Source: Brevundimonas sp. NIBR11 (GTDB lineage: Bacteria; Pseudomonadota; Alphaproteobacteria; Caulobacterales; Caulobacteraceae). Taken from it: DNA of 64,000 nucleotides. Made by a program: the position numbers and the translations under genes. Below, in pieces: positions 34,635 through 42,980 of this stretch. The DNA lies in assembly GCF_027912535.1 (NCBI RefSeq), contig NZ_CP115465.1, positions 600,001-664,000 on the forward strand. The letters run 5' to 3'. The notes below the pieces were generated by a model. That model was not told where the DNA came from. It searched no databases and saw only the letters and a list, made by a program, of their open reading frames with translations. Within the stretch, counting starts at the first letter, position 1, and each line of letters begins with the position of its first letter.

Positions 34635-35090
34635 TCAGGCGGCGGGTTGTCCCACGGTCGCCCTGACCTCGACCGGCGCGGCGTTGGCGAAGGCCAGGGT
34701 CAGAGGCACGGTGTCGCCGGTCTTCAGCGGCTCGGTGACACCCATCAGCATGATGTGGTTGCCGCCCGGGGCCAAGGCCACGGCCTGACCGGCCGGAAGG
34801 GGCAGACCCGCCTCCAGCTCGCGCATCATCATCATATTGCTCTCCATCCGCATCTCGTGGACCTGCGCCAGGGCGGCGACGGGAGAGCTGACCGACACCA
34901 GGGTATCGGCGTCGGGCGCGGTCAGTGTCAGGTAGCAGCCGGTGACCTGGCGGCCCTTCGGCGTCGGGCGGCAGATGGCGTCGGCGACGGCCACCGGTCC
35001 GGCGGCCTCCGACTTGCCGGACGAACCGGACTGACCGCAGGCGGCGAGGGTCAGGGCGGCCAGGGTCGCCAGGACGGGAAGGGATTTCAT
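34635..35090 (-). CDS. PCu(A)C-type periplasmic copper chaperone
   Basis: This is a 151-aa lipoprotein with signal and lipobox LAAC, the fourth gene of a copper-type operon. The mature domain keeps the copper-binding arrangement of PCu(A)C proteins: HEMRMESNMMMMRE followed about 20 residues later by NHIMLMG, giving methionine and histidine ligands for Cu(I). Such proteins deliver copper to cytochrome oxidase or hold it in the periplasm. It lies 13 nt after the PepSY gene stop. Confidence 0.92.
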   Translation of the reverse strand: MKSLPVLATLAALTLAACGQSGSSGKSEAAGPVAVADAICRPTPKGRQVTGCYLTLTAPDADTLVSVSSPVAALAQVHEMRMESNMMMMRELEAGLPLPAGQAVALAPGGNHIMLMGVTEPLKTGDTVPLTLAFANAAPVEVRATVGQPAA

Positions 35091-35103: not shown

Positions 35104-36462
35104 TCAGGAGGCGAGGCTGCGGGGTCGGTTCAGGAACCAGACCAGTCGATCCAGCCCGACCGCGACGATCAGGCTGAGACCCGTCAGGGGATACAGGATG
35201 GCGAGGGGCAGGACGATGGCGAGAACGGCGGCTTTCGCCCGCGGACTGGGCGGGGCGACGGGCGCCGCCAGCCGACCCTTGGGCCGTCGCTTCCACCACA
35301 TGACCACGGCGCTGATCCCCAGCAGCCATATGGCGAGGCAGCCGCCCAGCATGACGAAGCGGTTGATCTGGCCGTACTGGGTGCCCTGATGGGCGGCGAT
35401 GCCCCATTCGATCGCCTTCGCGCCCGGGCCGAAGGCGGCGTATCCGATATCGGCCTTCACCGCGCCGGTCGCGCCGTCGATGTAGAGCGACCGGGTGTCC
35501 TCGACATGTGAGACCTGGCGCGAGGCAGTGAAGGCCAGGGTGGGATCTGCGGGGATCGAAATCTGATAGGGGCGGGCCAGACCTTCGTGCTCGGCTGCGG
35601 CGATCACGGTGGAAAGGCGCGCCGGGGCGGGATGGTCGGCGGCCATGACCATGCCCTCCATCGTCCAGCCAGTTCCCGATGGCGCATCGGCGGGGTGAGC
35701 GGCGTGGGCCCAGGGACTGGCGGCGACGGGCGCGGGCGGCCGGCCGAGGCCGCTGGACTTGACCCAGTCCCCGACCTGTTCGCCCCAGACCACCGACCAC
35801 GGCATGCCGGTCACGGCCAGGAACAGGATGACCCCGCCGGCGTAGAGCCCGGTGACGGCATGCAGGTCGCGCCAGAACGGACGGCGCGCCGTGTCGGTCG
35901 TGGACAAGGCCACGACCCCCACCGCCCGGCCGCGCGGCCACCACAGGAAGACGCCGGTCGCCACCAGAATGATGGCCCAGCCGGCCACGATCTCCACCAC
36001 GACGTTGGCCCAAGACCCGAACAGGACGAGGCTATGCAGCCGTTTCACCGGCTCCATCACCCCGCCGAAGCCGGTCACCCCGGTCACGCGGGCCGTGGCC
36101 GGATCGACGAAAACGGTGCGCTTCTGGCCATCCTCGCGGGTGATGCCGACACGGACAGCGCGGTCGGACCGTTCCGGGAGTAGCACGGTCGTCGCCCTCC
36201 CGCCTCCGGCTGTCTCTGCCGCAGCGCGCCACTCGTCCGGCGGAGCGTGGGCCGTCGAGGGCGCGACGGCCGCCATCGGCCGGTAGACGGCGTCGTCGAT
36301 CTCGCCCTTGAACAGATAGAGGGCGCCGGTCAGGGCCATCAGCATCAGCACCGGCAGGACCAGCAGCCCCGCGTAGAAATGCCACCGCCAGACGGTGCGA
36401 TAGGCGTCCGAGAGAAGGCCGGAAGCGGGCGAAGGCGCCCCCGGTTCGATGCGTCCGGACAT
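35104..36462 (-). CDS. PepSY-associated inner-membrane protein
   Basis: This is a 452-aa membrane protein of the PepSY_TM type. It begins with the motif YRTVWRWHFYAGLLVLPVLM and has four or five helices (LVLPVLMLMALTGALYLF; VVVEIVAGWAIILVATGVFL; LYAGGVILFLAVTGMPWS; LAIWLLGISAVVMWW; VLPLAILYPLTGLSLI) with large periplasmic PepSY-like loops. Relatives often accompany TonB receptors for iron or copper and are thought to act in metal reduction or transport. Its ATG shares one base with the receptor stop (TGATG). Confidence 0.88.
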   Translation of the reverse strand: MSGRIEPGAPSPASGLLSDAYRTVWRWHFYAGLLVLPVLMLMALTGALYLFKGEIDDAVYRPMAAVAPSTAHAPPDEWRAAAETAGGGRATTVLLPERSDRAVRVGITREDGQKRTVFVDPATARVTGVTGFGGVMEPVKRLHSLVLFGSWANVVVEIVAGWAIILVATGVFLWWPRGRAVGVVALSTTDTARRPFWRDLHAVTGLYAGGVILFLAVTGMPWSVVWGEQVGDWVKSSGLGRPPAPVAASPWAHAAHPADAPSGTGWTMEGMVMAADHPAPARLSTVIAAAEHEGLARPYQISIPADPTLAFTASRQVSHVEDTRSLYIDGATGAVKADIGYAAFGPGAKAIEWGIAAHQGTQYGQINRFVMLGGCLAIWLLGISAVVMWWKRRPKGRLAAPVAPPSPRAKAAVLAIVLPLAILYPLTGLSLIVAVGLDRLVWFLNRPRSLAS

Positions 36463-38522
36463 CAGTAGGCCACCCGAATGCCGACGAAGCCGGAGCGCCC
36501 CTCGCCAGGCCAGAACACCGCCGTCGACGCCGTTCGGGCGTCGGTCACGGCGCTGAAGTTCGAGACATAGCGTTCGTCGGCAAGATTGCGGGCGTCGACG
36601 AAGAGATTGATCCGTTCATCCAGTCGCCAGCCGGCGCCCAGATTCACCACCGTATAGCCCGGCGCCCTCAGGGTGTTCATGTAGTCGACCCAGCTGTCGG
36701 ACGGCGTCCATTCGACCTGCGGGGCCACGAACCAGCCCGCCGGGTTATCATAGCGCAGTTCGGCCCGGTACATGTGCGGTGGAACCAGGGGCAGGTCGCG
36801 GTCACCGTAGACCTTGTCTCCATCGAAGTGAAAGTCCGACAACGTATAGGTCTGACGCAGACGCCAACCGGTTGCGAAACGCCAGTCCAGTCCAGCCTCG
36901 ACGCCCTGATGGACCGTGGGTCCGGCGTTGAAGGTCGCCGCCGGAATGCCCAGCGTCGGGTTGACCACGAAGTTCAGCAGCTCGTTGTCCAGCTCCGCCC
37001 GATAGACTGCGACGTCCCACGAGAACGCATCCGTCCGGCCGCGCAAGCCGGCCTCGTAAGTCCAGGCTTCCTGCGCCTCGATCGGGGCGAAGCCGCCGGC
37101 GGTGGGCGACACGGAACCGAAGTTCGGCGGCTCGATCGACCGGGTGACGTTGGCAAAGGCCTGAGCGCCCGACGGCCCCTCCCAGAGAATGCCGATGCGT
37201 GGAGCGAACCAGTCGTAGTCCTTCTCGCGCGTCAGATCGAAGGTCGAGGCGACGCCCGGCAGAGCGAAGCTCTGATAGTCCCGCTCGGCCCTGCCGAACG
37301 TCCCGCCGGCGACCAGGGCGATGTGGTCGGTGACGAACAACCGGCCCTCGGCGAAGACGTCCAGAGCCTTGGCGTTCTGGCGGCTCTTGGCCGTGCGGCG
37401 TCCACTCGATCCGATGACGTTGACGAACTGCTGGGCGTCCAGATCCCCCACACGGTACCAGGCCCCGCCGAAAGCGTCTGCGCGCAGGCCGAACAGCGTC
37501 CCTTCCCAATCGAACCGGCCGAAGGTGCCGTAGTTGCGGCTCTGCTGGTCGACGACCTGGAAGATGGGGTGATGCAGGTCCTTCCAAGTGCCGTAGACGG
37601 CGCCCTCGAACACCAGGCCGTCGTTCAGCCGCCAACGGGTCGAGAGCGTGCTGCGCACGGAGGCGTAGTCGCGCTGATAGGCGCTGGCGACGTTGGCGGC
37701 GGCGGCCATGACCGGCGTCGTCAGCGCTTGGGTCAGGGTCAGGGAGCCGGGGATTTCCTGGTGAATATAGGCGCCCTGGACCGTCAGTCGGACTTCGCGG
37801 TCGTCGCCGAGCGATCGGCCGACGTTGGCGGTGATGTACTGTTGCTGACCGTCGGACTGCCGGCGCCAGCCCTCGGCCGTCGCGCCGGTCAGACCCAGAT
37901 AACCGTCCCAGTCGCCCCGGGATCCACCGACCTCGGCATGCAGTCGGGCCGTCTCCCACGAGCCGAAATCGACGCGCGCGCTGGCGGTCTCGGTGATGTT
38001 CGAGCCATTGGGGGTCACCAGGTTGACCGCTCCGCCCAACAGCGAGCCGCCGAAGCGAAGCGCATTGCCGCCCTTGTAGACCTCGGTGAACCGAGCCAGC
38101 AGGGGATCGACCATCTGCACGTCGCCATAGCCGTCGGCCTCGTTGAACGGAATTCCGTCCTGCGACACGAAGAGGCCGCGCAGGTGGTTGGGATTGCCGA
38201 TGCCGGAGCCCCGGATCGAGATGCGAACATCGCCGCCCCACTTCTTCTGGGCGTAAACGCCAGGCACGTCGCGCAGCACGTCTGCGATGTTGGGGGCGAA
38301 GCGGGTTTCGAGGCTTTCGGCGGAGACGACCGCGACGGCGCCCGGCGTGCGGGACAGGCGACGCCGGGCCTCGGCGACCGAAGGGGCGTCTTCCGGGTTC
38401 GGGGCGGCGGTGACGATGACTTCGCCAAGGTCGACCGAATCCTGTGGAGTGGTCTGGGCGAAGGCTGGGGCGCTCGCGCCGGCGAGCAGCAGCGCCAGCG
38501 GCGCCGCGGTGATCTTCAACAT
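36462..38522 (-). CDS. TonB-dependent receptor, likely copper
   Basis: This 686-aa protein is an outer-membrane TonB transporter of the compact, metal-type size. The signal peptide (MLKITAAPLALLLAGASAPA) is followed by a TonB-box-like VDLGEVIVTAAP, a plug with ISIRGSGIGNPNHLRGLFVS and NALRFGGSLLGGAVNLVTP, and a barrel ending GFVGIRVAY. I place the start at 38522, preceded by AGGA; the ORF extension to 38804 overlaps DUF2946 in another frame and is not real. Copper as substrate is inferred from the DUF2946, PepSY and PCu(A)C neighbours. Translation may be controlled by the leader ORF at 38593. Confidence 0.9.
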   Translation of the reverse strand: MLKITAAPLALLLAGASAPAFAQTTPQDSVDLGEVIVTAAPNPEDAPSVAEARRRLSRTPGAVAVVSAESLETRFAPNIADVLRDVPGVYAQKKWGGDVRISIRGSGIGNPNHLRGLFVSQDGIPFNEADGYGDVQMVDPLLARFTEVYKGGNALRFGGSLLGGAVNLVTPNGSNITETASARVDFGSWETARLHAEVGGSRGDWDGYLGLTGATAEGWRRQSDGQQQYITANVGRSLGDDREVRLTVQGAYIHQEIPGSLTLTQALTTPVMAAAANVASAYQRDYASVRSTLSTRWRLNDGLVFEGAVYGTWKDLHHPIFQVVDQQSRNYGTFGRFDWEGTLFGLRADAFGGAWYRVGDLDAQQFVNVIGSSGRRTAKSRQNAKALDVFAEGRLFVTDHIALVAGGTFGRAERDYQSFALPGVASTFDLTREKDYDWFAPRIGILWEGPSGAQAFANVTRSIEPPNFGSVSPTAGGFAPIEAQEAWTYEAGLRGRTDAFSWDVAVYRAELDNELLNFVVNPTLGIPAATFNAGPTVHQGVEAGLDWRFATGWRLRQTYTLSDFHFDGDKVYGDRDLPLVPPHMYRAELRYDNPAGWFVAPQVEWTPSDSWVDYMNTLRAPGYTVVNLGAGWRLDERINLFVDARNLADERYVSNFSAVTDARTASTAVFWPGEGRSGFVGIRVAY

Positions 38523-38548
38523 GGGATTTCCTGAACAGTGACAGGCGA

Positions 38549-38572
38549 GCGCGGCCCTGGTCAGGGGCGCGC
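38549..38572 (-). promoter_or_regulatory. Hairpin between DUF2946 leader ORF and TonB receptor
   Basis: Arms GCGCGGCCCTG and CAGGGGCGCGC pair over 11 positions with one mismatch around a 2-nt loop. It lies 20 nt past the DUF2946 stop and 27 nt before the receptor start. There is no T-run, so it is not an intrinsic terminator. It could be an attenuator or part of a Rho-dependent switch. Confidence 0.5.
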
Positions 38573-38592
38573 AGGCGAAGGATCGGTCTGGT

Positions 38593-38982
38593 TCAGGCGT
38601 GGGGAGGAGCGGTTGAAGGCGGACGGGGGGGACCGCGCGCGGGCGGCGGCGCGGCTTCGTGCTGGGCGACGAACACCGTGGCCGGGCGGACGGTCGCGCC
38701 GCGCAGAGGCGTGAGGCGCGGCGGATCGGGCAGGGCGGCGGCGAAGGCCAGGACGCAGGCGGCGCATTTGGCTCCGACCATCCCCTTGCCGGAGTCTTGA
38801 CCATCCATGCCGATGGAGATGGTCTGAGGCCCCTCGGTGGAGCAGATGACCATGGGGCGGCCCGGCGTCGAGGCCGCCAGCGCCGCGAACGGCATCAGGC
38901 TTCCGAACACGATGGCGAACGTCGCGGCCAGGAAGGCCAGCGAGCGCAGGGTCGACCAGGATTCGGCCTGCGGACGGGTCAC
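38593..38982 (-). CDS. DUF2946-type small protein, candidate copper-sensing leader ORF
   Basis: This is a 129-aa protein (GTG start) with an N-terminal hydrophobic helix (LAFLAATFAIVFGSLMPFAA), a conserved VICSTEGPQTI block, a CxxC motif (C73-A-A-C76 in AKCAACVLA) and a proline-rich C-terminus (residues about 112-129). This is the layout of DUF2946 proteins. In Bordetella a member called CruR acts as an upstream ORF: copper binding to the nascent CxxC peptide relieves a proline-induced ribosome pause and shuts off the downstream TonB receptor gene. Here too the ORF lies 70 nt upstream of a TonB receptor. That it works the same way is inference. Confidence 0.85.
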   Translation of the reverse strand: MTRPQAESWSTLRSLAFLAATFAIVFGSLMPFAALAASTPGRPMVICSTEGPQTISIGMDGQDSGKGMVGAKCAACVLAFAAALPDPPRLTPLRGATVRPATVFVAQHEAAPPPARGPPRPPSTAPPHA

Positions 38983-39019: not shown

Positions 39020-39634
39020 CTATTCGCCTTTCGCCGCGTGCGCGGCCTGTCGCGGACTGAATTTCGGCGCGGGGGCCAGGCGCATGACCTCGCCCTGATA
39101 GCGTTCGTCGTCGCCCCTGACCGCGAAGGGCAGGGCGTCGGCGCAGGCGTTCAGCATCGCCTCCAGCCACGGCTGCTCGGCCTTGTGGAAGTCGCCCAGC
39201 ACGTGGGGCATGACCAGGTGCGGCTCTCCGGGGTGGCCGATGCCCATGCGGGCGCGGCGGAAGTCGGCGCCGAGTTGGCTGATCAGGCTACGGACCCCGT
39301 TCTGGCCGGCCGCCCCGCCGCCCGTCTTCATGCGGAAGCGGCCGGGGGCCAGGTCGATCTCGTCGTGGAAGACGATGATGTCTTTTGGCGGGATTTTGTA
39401 GAAGCGCGCCGCCTCTCCGACGGCGCTGCCGGAGTTGTTCATGAAGGTCTGAGGCTTCATCAGGAGAATCTTCTGACCCTCGATCTCGCCTTCGCAGATC
39501 ACCGACTGGAACTTCGCCCGCTCCGAGCCGAAGCGCCACCGGCGCGCGATCTCGTCCACGGCCAAGAAGCCGACGTTATGGCGGTTCTTCTCGTATTTGG
39601 GCCCGGGATTGCCGAGGCCGGCGATGATCAGCAT
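39020..39634 (-). CDS. pth: Peptidyl-tRNA hydrolase
   Basis: This 204-aa enzyme recycles peptidyl-tRNA by ester hydrolysis. The N-terminus LIIAGLGNPGPKYEKNRHNV holds the catalytic His near 20. LMKPQTFMNNSGSAVGE, FHDEIDLAPGRFRMKTGGG and AGQNGVRSLISQLG follow in family order. A C-terminal extension is rich in charged residues, as in alphaproteobacterial forms. It follows rplY by about 70 nt with a terminator between, and precedes the DUF2946 ORF by 37 nt. Confidence 0.98.
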   Translation of the reverse strand: MLIIAGLGNPGPKYEKNRHNVGFLAVDEIARRWRFGSERAKFQSVICEGEIEGQKILLMKPQTFMNNSGSAVGEAARFYKIPPKDIIVFHDEIDLAPGRFRMKTGGGAAGQNGVRSLISQLGADFRRARMGIGHPGEPHLVMPHVLGDFHKAEQPWLEAMLNACADALPFAVRGDDERYQGEVMRLAPAPKFSPRQAAHAAKGE

Positions 39635-40545: not shown

Positions 40546-41619
40546 TCAGTTGGTTGCGGGCGCGGTCGCCGTCAGGGATGCGCTGGTCGCCTCGACCGCC
40601 ACCGGACTGACCACGGCGGTGGCCGTGACCGGGGTCGCCGGAACCGGAACCGTCGCCGCTGTCGCGCAGGTGGCCAGGTCGCGGATGACGTGGCGGCCCA
40701 GACAGAACATGTCCTCATAGCTGGGGCGCGCGGCCGCCAGACACTGGAAAAGGTTCAGCTTCGACATGTCCAGACAGAACTGGGCGTTGGTCTCGACCGA
40801 CAGGGCCTCGGTGTTGGCGCGGGCGTCGTCGCCGGCCGCGCCCATGGCCGCCAGGGCGGCGATGGCCAGGGCATTGACCACGGCGGGCGTGTAGGGCGGG
40901 GCGTTGCGGGCGGCGGGCAGATTCAGGCCCGTACCGCTGTTGGCGGCGGTGAACAGCCGCATCGATTCCTCGGCTGAGGGCAGCATCTGGCCGGCGGAGA
41001 TGCTCTTGATCGATTCCAGGCGAACTTCGCGGCTGGCGATCGGGGTCGTGGCCCAGCGGCGGCGCGGGTCGCGGCGTTCCTGGATCGTATAGGCGTCCGC
41101 TTCCACGCCGTCGGCGATAGCGGTCAGGGAAGCGATGTCCTGGCCCAGGGTCGAGATGATCAGGCCGGCGGCCACGTCGGCTCCGGGCAGGTTCGCCGCA
41201 TAGGCCGGGTCGCGAATGATGTTGGCGACGACGTCGGCGCGCGCCTGAGGGTCATTGACGTAGCTGCGCACGCCCTGGACGAACTCCGGCGACTGCAGGG
41301 CCAGGATGGAGGCATAGGCGATCATGCCGCGCGACAGGGTGGCCGGGTCGTAGGCCGCGCCCTTGCGCATGGCGGCCTGGATCGATTCGGCGTCCTGGAA
41401 GCCGCCGGCCTGGATTGTGCCGACGTCGCGGATGAAGGTGACGTAGATCGAGGCGGCCTGGGCCACGCCTTCGTTCAGGGTCACGGCCGGGGGCGGCGGC
41501 GGGGGCGGAGGAGGCGGCGGCGGGGGCGCCGGAGGCTCGGGCGTGCTGCATGCAGCCAGAACGGCGGCGGCGGCGACGGAAGCGATGGCGAGGCCGCGGC
41601 GCGAAAGGCCCAGACGCAT
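40546..41619 (-). CDS. Lipoprotein of unknown function with Pro13 run (paralogue B)
   Basis: This is a 357-aa predicted lipoprotein with lipobox LAAC (AVLAACSTPE). Immediately after it comes a run of 13 prolines. The body shares long blocks with the gene upstream: GVAQAASIYVTFIRDVGTI, a SRGMIAYASILALQSPEFVQGV block, and near the C-terminus FQCLAAARPSYEDMFCLGRH followed by VIRDLATC. A threonine- and alanine-rich tail ends it. I know no function. The family is likely restricted to close relatives. Thirteen consecutive prolines should make translation depend on elongation factor P. Confidence 0.75.
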   Translation of the reverse strand: MRLGLSRRGLAIASVAAAAVLAACSTPEPPAPPPPPPPPPPPPPAVTLNEGVAQAASIYVTFIRDVGTIQAGGFQDAESIQAAMRKGAAYDPATLSRGMIAYASILALQSPEFVQGVRSYVNDPQARADVVANIIRDPAYAANLPGADVAAGLIISTLGQDIASLTAIADGVEADAYTIQERRDPRRRWATTPIASREVRLESIKSISAGQMLPSAEESMRLFTAANSGTGLNLPAARNAPPYTPAVVNALAIAALAAMGAAGDDARANTEALSVETNAQFCLDMSKLNLFQCLAAARPSYEDMFCLGRHVIRDLATCATAATVPVPATPVTATAVVSPVAVEATSASLTATAPATN

Positions 41620-41750: not shown

Positions 41751-42980
41751 TCAGTTGTTCGGGCCCGAGTTCAGCCTCTGTGTCGGCGACTGCTCCGGCC
41801 GTGGGGTGGCGGTGGAGTATCCAGCGGGGGCGGAAGGCGTAATCGGCAAAGGCGTCGGCGTGATGGAGGGCGCGGGCGTCGGCTGCTCTAGGGTCCGAGG
41901 CGCGATCGCGGGCGAGCGTTCCGGGGCGGCGCTGCGGCTCTGGGTCGGGTTGCCCACGGTGATGATGGCGGCCGGCAGGGCGGCGCCCCGCGCACAGGTC
42001 GACAGGTCGCGGATCACGTGTCGGCCCAGGCAGAACATGTCCTCATAGGTCGGACGGGCGGCCGCCAGACACTGGAACAGGTTCAGCTTGGAGCTGGCCA
42101 GACAGTCCTGGCTGGCGCGGTCGTACTGCAGGGCGTCGGTGTTGGCGCGAGCGTTGTCACCGGCCGCGCCCAGGGCGGCCAATGCAGCCATGGCGATGGC
42201 GTTGGTCACCGACGGCGCATAGGGCGGGCGGCGCAGGCGGCCGGCCGTGACGCCCAGGCCCGAACCGCTGTTCGAGGCGGCGTACAGGCGGGCCGCCTCC
42301 GACCCCGACGGGGCGATGGGGCGGCTCAGGTCCTTGATGGTCTGCAACCGGCCTTCGCGGTCCGCCGGGGTGGCGCGACCCCAGACGTTCCGCTGATCGC
42401 CGGTGTACTGAATGTTGTACGCGTCGCTCTCGACGGAGTCGGCGGCGGTCGACAGGGCGACGATGTCGGCTTCCAGCACCGACATGACCAGGCTGGCGGC
42501 CGCTTCCGCGCCGGGCAGGGTCGAGGCATAGGAGGGGTTTGCCACGATCCGATCGATGATCTGGCGCCGCGCCTCAGGCTCCGCGCCCGCCTGACGCACG
42601 CCCGACACGAACTCCGGCGACTGCAGCGCCAGGATGGAGCCGTAGGCGACCAGGCCGCGCGAAATCTGGTTCGGGTCGTAGGACGCCCCGCGGCGCAAGG
42701 CCTCCTGCACCTGAGCCGGGCTGGCGAAGCCGCCCCGGATCGTCGCCATGTCGCGGGTGAAGGTCAGATAGACGGCGGCCGACTGGGCCACACTGTCGTT
42801 CAGAGCCACGGGCGGCGGCAGGCGGGCGGCAATGGCGGCCGCTTCCTGGGCCGCGACGATGGCGGCCACGCGCGCTTCCTCGGCCTGCAGTTCGGCGCGA
42901 CTCGGACCGCAGCTGTTCAGCACGGCCGCGACGGCGATGGCGACCAGGGCCGGGCCCCGGCTACGGAAATTCAGACGCAT
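41751..42980 (-). CDS. Lipoprotein of unknown function (paralogue A)
   Basis: This is a 409-aa predicted lipoprotein with lipobox LNSC (AAVLNSCGPSR). A short coiled segment (EARVAAIVAAQEAAAIAARL) replaces the proline run of its neighbour. The shared core has SVAQSAAVYLTFTRDMATI, SRGLVAYGSILALQSPEFVS and, near the C-terminus, FQCLAAARPTYEDMFCLGRH. The tail is proline-, serine- and threonine-rich and probably disordered or cell-wall spanning. Three cysteines in the C-terminal block are kept in both copies. It starts 78 nt after the prs stop, so it may be part of a prs transcript. Confidence 0.75.
   Translation of the reverse strand: MRLNFRSRGPALVAIAVAAVLNSCGPSRAELQAEEARVAAIVAAQEAAAIAARLPPPVALNDSVAQSAAVYLTFTRDMATIRGGFASPAQVQEALRRGASYDPNQISRGLVAYGSILALQSPEFVSGVRQAGAEPEARRQIIDRIVANPSYASTLPGAEAAASLVMSVLEADIVALSTAADSVESDAYNIQYTGDQRNVWGRATPADREGRLQTIKDLSRPIAPSGSEAARLYAASNSGSGLGVTAGRLRRPPYAPSVTNAIAMAALAALGAAGDNARANTDALQYDRASQDCLASSKLNLFQCLAAARPTYEDMFCLGRHVIRDLSTCARGAALPAAIITVGNPTQSRSAAPERSPAIAPRTLEQPTPAPSITPTPLPITPSAPAGYSTATPRPEQSPTQRLNSGPNN

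Follow-up and report, generated by a model that had tools for sequence, protein, structure and literature searches.

In Brevundimonas sp. NIBR11, the open reading frame that precedes a TonB-dependent receptor gene in a 64,000-nucleotide stretch of contig NZ_CP115465.1 (hereafter the window) is a leader ORF of the DUF2946 (CruR/CutF) family. Both the family assignment and the leader reading are well supported, and by analogy with that family the ORF would sense copper as a nascent chain. The observations are probably best explained by a copper-sensing leader whose arrest opens a lock on the Shine-Dalgarno (SD) sequence of the receptor gene and turns the operon on, copper relieving the arrest and turning uptake off.

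In the proposed mechanism, the mRNA end of the leader ORF (uORF) and the spacer behind it would form the SD lock. A ribosome arrested at the C-terminal x[AG]PP motif would lay its footprint over the anti-SD arm and make the SD more accessible, leading to translation of the receptor/PepSY_TM/PCuAC operon, and it may also shield a C-rich, rut-like stretch from Rho. Binding of Cu(I) to the nascent CxxC would relieve the arrest, upon which the ribosome would depart and the lock would close, possibly together with Rho termination, and copper uptake would be shut off.

The DUF2946 leader and its operon

The genes and protein motifs concerned all lie on the minus strand:

39020-39634 (minus): pth, peptidyl-tRNA hydrolase, 37 nt upstream of the uORF
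38593..38982 (minus): DUF2946 leader ORF (uORF), GTG start, 129 aa, Pfam PF11162
38755..38766 (minus): CxxC codons (CAAC, residues 73-76), presumed to bind Cu(I)
38626..38637 (minus): motif 1, RGPP codons, residues 116-119, 39 residues past CxxC, additional arrest-type motif
38602..38613 (minus): motif 2, TAPP codons, residues 124-127, 47 residues past CxxC
36462..38522 (minus): TonB-dependent receptor (Pfam barrel and plug), presumed importer of a copper complex
35104..36462 (minus): PepSY_TM protein (Pfam, 211 bits), occupying the CrpH position
34635..35090 (minus): PCu(A)C copper chaperone (Pfam PF04314, 123.9 bits), lipoprotein-like N terminus

An earlier sequence-only reading had proposed a DUF2946-like ORF of 129 aa, and this ORF is real, matching the PF11162 profile with 33.1 bits against a gathering cut-off of 23.7. 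The C73xxC76 pair is present and reads C73-A-A-C76, and the last 18 residues are Pro-rich as described, containing both RGPP and TAPP. The start and sequence of the uORF are kept among Brevundimonas relatives, its N terminus looked signal-like by eye, and a profile search found one DUF2946 match in the genome. The arrangement that had been read from the letters was also borne out, with the uORF placed behind pth, a gap of 70 nt between the uORF stop and the receptor ATG (38522), and PepSY followed by PCu(A)C downstream. The full order on the minus strand is rplY-like, pth, uORF, TonB receptor, PepSY_TM, PCuAC and ychF-like, where the flanking genes are, from their sequences, what we take to be rplY and ychF. 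Further along the same strand, an adjacent pair of similar lipoprotein-like genes (40546-41619 and 41751-42980) was observed, with a run of 13 prolines in the first.

An OprC-type copper receptor was considered for the TonB receptor and rejected, as the score of 23.4 bits with the TIGR01778 copper receptor model fell far short of its cut-off (472). The search of solved structures with the receptor returned only YncD and a PQQ transporter (about 1e-28).

The tie between the uORF and the receptor operon, on which the sequence-only reading depended, proved tight. A receptor-only scan of genomes yielded 44 loci, 3 of them cut at a contig end, and the uORF was found in 40 of the 41 others, which have upstream sequence; the single locus without it (L070) is a distant verrucomicrobial one with 37% identity. 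Among the 44 loci, several of which are incomplete, the neighbours included pth in 20, ychF in 19, PepSY_TM in 25 and PCuAC in 36. The gene order of the window recurs at other Brevundimonas loci. No pth was seen in Phenylobacterium and Caulobacter loci within the stretch examined around each, and the placement of pth beside an arrest-type leader, as seen in Brevundimonas loci, is perhaps only positional.

Receptor upstream regions were also taken from 40 of 109 family genomes, some repeating the 44-locus set and 15 being Brevundimonas chosen because they had no DUF2946 match listed (13) or only one elsewhere (2). A leader was present in 37 of these 40 regions, including genomes without a listed match, indicating that the Pfam search misses many leaders. 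Three Brevundimonas receptors of this family (L251, L253, L255) had no upstream leader ORF that could be found.

A survey of the genus gave 53 DUF2946 matches in 52 of 131 genomes. Fifty of these loci were examined: 39 stand before this receptor, 4 before PepSY_TM and 1 (L023) before a receptor remnant, and the rest, labelled by eye, comprise 2 before other TonB receptors, 2 before an efflux-like protein and 2 unassigned. L023 (about 1845-2080) retains the leader and the predicted lock ahead of a short remnant, an ORF with the start and end of the receptor and the middle missing, which is followed by PepSY_TM.

A predicted Shine-Dalgarno lock and its conservation

The RNA features of the window locus are as follows:

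38560..38660 (minus): rut-like region with C in excess of G, C minus G between about +18 and +36 % over 78-nt windows
38591..38597 (minus): 5' arm CCTGAAC (anti-SD), spanning the TGA stop of the uORF (38593-38595), from MFE and centroid pairing
38549..38572 (minus): inner GC-rich hairpin, 5+4 bp on either side of a C.C mismatch, loop of 4 nt
38530..38536 (minus): 3' arm GTTCAGG, predicted to pair, holding most of the receptor SD (AGGA 38529-38532)

The hairpin that had been described as one of 11 bp exists, albeit with 9 bp in the MFE structure rather than a clean 11. The absence of a T-run 3' of it was confirmed, and an intrinsic terminator was rejected on this ground. It turned out to be the inner part of a longer structure, a point absent from the earlier reading: in the fold prediction, CCTGAAC at the uORF stop pairs with GTTCAGG at the receptor Shine-Dalgarno, enclosing the hairpin within an outer helix over the SD. 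The fold of the 130-nt region beats 200 of 200 dinucleotide shuffles (z -3.34), and 44 of 45 aligned sequences retain every pair of CCTGA/TCAGG; as the core helix does not vary within the genus, Brevundimonas offers no covariation. A match to a known RNA family was dismissed as chance (12.7 bits, gathering score 40, E 0.17).

For comparison across loci, the lock was scored as S, the summed probability of the SD region pairing with the 36 nt from the third codon of the motif, and called strong at S>=5; the starts of the next genes and of control genes were set heuristically, and all locus counts ignore kinship. The main set held 97 distinct Caulobacterales loci selected for x[AG]PP and a Pro-rich end irrespective of CxxC, drawn from 123 receptor loci that include some found via the DUF2946 search. 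The wider set started from 139 loci outside the main set and was non-random, consisting of the best matches plus 80 hand-picked from the upper part of the match lists. From it, 21 were dropped: 3 had no next gene, and 18 showed no xxPP within the final 18 residues of the followed frame, in some cases owing to a frame lost by the script or to a longer tail. Another 12 with spacers outside 25-180 nt were dropped to leave 106, one (L193) belonging to the window's own order.

All of the RNA evidence is in silico. A strong lock was predicted in 89 of the 97 Caulobacterales loci (mean S 7.84 vs 1.37 shuffled) and in 80 of the 106 class- and phylum-level loci (mean 6.99 vs 1.98 shuffled), while ordinary same-strand gene pairs reached S>=5 in 42 of 240 cases (mean 2.21 vs 2.01 shuffled). 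The strong wider loci were divided between Alphaproteobacteria (44/58) and other Pseudomonadota (36/48), and 33 of 37 families had at least one. In 65 of the 106, the observed S was reached by at most 2 of 40 shuffles; weak cases amounted to 26 with S<5, of which 16 had S<1. Conservation of the modelled lock across most members examined is well supported by computation. At L003, L004, L027 and L084, the leader and its lock stand directly ahead of PepSY_TM with no receptor between (S 6.0-8.1), suggesting that the lock travels with the uORF.

Exchange of 3' arms among the 106 loci gave the same picture at the level of the set, in that none of 5000 permutations reached the mean duplex energy of the real arm pairs (-12.41, against a mean of -8.58 after swapping), a difference to which between-genome variation in G+C may contribute; at only 35 of 106 loci did the own arm rank in the best 5% of its swaps. 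Against shuffles of the same 28-nt arm, the own arm was in the best 5% in 70 of 97 Caulobacterales and 46 of 106 wider loci. The arms change between genera yet stay complementary, being CCTGAA/TTCAGG in Brevundimonas, CCGAACG/CGTTCGG in L060 and CCGTCTCAAAC/GTTTGAAACGG, with one mismatch, in L065. In 2 of 20 divergent Caulobacterales loci (L059, L072), Brevundimonas 3' arms fit better than the own ones.

This helix bears on a mechanism identical to that of CruR, in which arrest would only keep Rho off a rut site, copper would relieve the arrest, Rho would terminate before the receptor and the helix over the SD would be incidental. The uORF end does carry a strong C>G stretch compatible with Rho, in support of the sequence-only reading. 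C minus G is +28 % there, whereas 97 gene ends in the window average -1.1 (sd 9.6) with 2 reaching +20, and it is at least +10 in 96 of 97 Caulobacterales loci. The kinds of genes also match cruR-crtA-crpH, according to the available text of PMC9426467, PMC12914433 and PMC13038864. However, such a stretch, expected of a rut site, is also produced by Pro codons, and a helix well above shuffles, swaps and ordinary gene pairs is hard to explain as incidental; this account is considered unlikely. Rho and the lock would nonetheless be compatible, since both would lie under a stalled ribosome, and Rho may play a part in Brevundimonas. CruR-type Rho termination as the output would cover only part of the picture, and the sequence-only interpretation as a whole is partly supported.

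Putative sensor site, arrest-type motifs and ribosome position

The protein signature was counted in sets with different entry criteria, and every count reflects the filter applied to its set. Among 62 distinct loci selected for CxxC and a Pro-rich end, x[AG]PP lies 46-49 residues past CxxC and 2-5 from the C-terminal end in all 62; in the 97-locus set, CxxC lies 45-49 residues ahead of motif 2 in 85. The first residue of motif 2 in these 97 is T in 52, Q in 17, R in 14, C in 12 and H in 2, with RAPP at the canonical place in 8 and RGPP in 6. The motif of class- and phylum-level loci is RAPP in 97 of 118 and RGPP in 13 of 118, with a CxxC-to-motif spacing of 44-47 in 94 of 102 measurable cases. 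Judged by this spacing in both Caulobacterales and wider loci, TAPP and not RGPP occupies the RAPP place of CruR in the window, although the Pfam profile nonetheless aligns its end to RGPP (residue 119).

The Caulobacterales twist, as far as sequences tell, would be an additional R[AG]PP that lies eight residues ahead of the canonical site. [RQH][AG]PP is found there in 75 of 97 loci. It occurs in 57 of the 64 loci with a motif 2 devoid of R/Q/H and in 18 of the 33 with one of these residues in motif 2, which looks like a trade-off between the two sites.

Twelve of the 97 leaders were scored without CxxC, and 11 of them retain a single Cys there, as C-x-F or C-x-M. In the twelfth, L086, the CxxC part and the arrest tail lie in different frames, owing to a frameshift or a sequencing error. 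A strong lock is absent in 6 of the 11 single-Cys leaders (L071, L073, L272, L276, L278, L281; the others are L061, L067, L252, L254 and L273) vs 2 of 85 CxxC leaders, kinship ignored, indicating that sensor and lock tend to be lost together. The single-Cys leaders may sense something else or have lost sensing. A second DUF2946 type with a PRASP end instead of RAPP was observed at L197, L204, L210, L212, L215, L216, L223 and L226, with L197 and L204 lying no more than about 1 kb from RAPP-type genes of their own genomes (L126, L128).

In an arrested ribosome, the third motif residue sits in the P site, as the available text of PMC10987492 and, for CruR, of PMC12992588 has it. The 5' arm of the window begins +10 from the third-residue codon of motif 2. 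In the wider set, the arm start has a median of +7 nt (5-95%: 0 to +19), and the outermost 5'-arm base lies 0 to +15 nt from this codon in 72 of 79 loci. Since a ribosome covers mRNA downstream to about +15, the arm, starting a few nt past the motif, falls where the stalled ribosome would sit.

The same geometry was weighed against plain translational coupling, whereby ribosomes ending at the uORF stop would open the SD helix regardless of copper and the peptide would be no sensor. The overlap of the 5' arm with the stop codon in Brevundimonas speaks for coupling, as does the partial movement of the arm start with tail length, whose slope of 1.0 nt/residue lies between 0 (motif-anchored) and 3 (stop-anchored); the spread of arm starts has an sd of 5.0 nt when anchored on the motif vs 5.7 nt on the stop. 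However, loci of Phenylobacterium, Caulobacter and Asticcacaulis have an arm that begins well ahead of the stop codon, the leaders keep CxxC, its distance to motif 2 and the tail, and loss of the helix is commoner in the single-Cys leaders described above, which makes plain coupling very unlikely.

For the copper-sensing leader, opening of the lock by arrest was modelled with the RNA hidden to +15, leaving out 9 of 97 and 6 of 106 loci with unrecognised SD cores and 71 of 240 control pairs with the same defect or a short spacer. The pairing probability of the SD barely fell, from 0.81 to 0.75 in Caulobacterales, from 0.86 to 0.68 in the wider set and from 0.75 to 0.72 for the window SD core, as weaker pairing nearby replaces the helix; only 5 of 88 and 28 of 100 loci showed a fall of 0.3 or more. 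The opening energy, chosen as a second measure after this result was seen, dropped from 6.5 to 2.4 kcal/mol in Caulobacterales (88 loci) and from 5.9 to 2.8 kcal/mol in the wider set (100 loci). The drop was at least 2 kcal/mol in 78 of 88 and 62 of 100 loci vs 16 of 169 control pairs; in the window, the cost went only from 7.3 to 4.1 kcal/mol with the ribosome at motif 2. A ribosome eight codons upstream left the Caulobacterales cost at 6.3 kcal/mol, and with one at the RGPP of the window the modelled lock stayed shut at 7.1 kcal/mol. If the lock is the output, motif 2 would thus be the site that matters, and the role of RGPP may be to slow the ribosome or to prepare the arrest. While we infer that the TAPP/RGPP tail arrests ribosomes, arrest at motif 2 of the window is not assured, because it is TAPP, and R and A changes in the RAPP of CruR abolished expression (PMC9426467, available text).

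Comparison with CruR, CutF and other arrest peptides

CruR (bp2923 of Bordetella pertussis, in cruR-crtA(bfrG)-crpH) arrests at RAPP, and the arrest is relieved by Cu, in the available part of the published account; the roles of Rho termination, RAPP and CxxC were shown by mutants (PMC9426467, same limitation). The Brevundimonas uORF resembles it in the DUF2946 domain, the CxxC, the C-terminal Pro arrest-type motif, the first place before TBDT and PepSY_TM genes, and the C>G stretch at the uORF end. The claim that the same switch operates here is nevertheless not supported in that form. RAPP lies at 45 residues in CruR, whereas here TAPP takes the canonical place at 47 and an R-type motif, RGPP, lies 8 residues further upstream at 39. 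The spacer measures 70 nt, against 162 in CruR. Among the loci folded, which leave aside the B. pertussis spacer, the RNA feature that is conserved is a predicted SD-masking helix, a CutF-kind output, and not a terminator, whereas CruR is described as Rho-dependent. In our reading, which is not that of the CruR authors, the CruR mutant data (expression lost with RAPP changes and early stops) fit a lock as well as Rho. The available text of the CruR paper (PMC9426467) has 0 occurrences of both 'Shine-Dalgarno' and 'ribosome-binding' and no discussion of SD masking. That of a C. crescentus study (PMC8224329), consulted for published copper RNA-seq of this operon, names no ortholog that could be matched to the operon.

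CutF (Rhodobacter capsulatus, cutFOG) shares the DUF2946 leader, the signal-like N terminus, the Pro-rich end and the stem-loop masking the SD of the next gene, here predicted and in R. capsulatus shown. Its authors give intergenic lengths rather than loops across the family and conclude that modes of action differ (PMC9973294, available text for both points). The opposite copper sign, with copper strengthening the arrest and the receptor operon on, would suit this SD-masking loop of cutF-cutO in the same bacterial class. CutF, however, has CxxxC and heads a detoxifying multicopper oxidase induced by copper, whereas a receptor and a chaperone follow CxxC here, as in CruR, whose operon copper represses; the CutF sign is regarded as quite unlikely, and copper would presumably repress the Brevundimonas operon.

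In the copper-sensing leader as proposed, the output resembles that of SecM, in which arrest frees a masked SD. The C-terminal R[AG]PP-like motif likewise recalls SecM-type arrest peptides and the RAPP/RGPP (RQH) group, in the motif only and as a likeness without homology shown, and the described members monitor protein export and have no metal site, unlike the present leader.

It is reasonably probable that CruR and CutF represent one mechanism, in which DUF2946 leaders of Pseudomonadota set an anti-SD arm a few nt past the arrest codons, so that metal-controlled arrest would be read out by an SD lock of the SecM kind irrespective of cargo (TBDT, PepSY_TM, PCuAC or others), with Rho as a follow-on, and in which Caulobacterales would carry a tandem tail of R[AG]PP and x[AG]PP eight codons apart, with only the second site able to open the lock. 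No description of a family-wide SD lock in DUF2946 leaders was found in the open literature, subscription papers and bioRxiv lying outside the scope. The two DUF2946 papers give seemingly different outputs, Rho termination for CruR and an SD loop for CutF. A shared lock, if true, would bring a large family of metal-sensing nascent chains under a single testable rule, predicting the effect of arrest on the next gene and naming the nucleotides to change.
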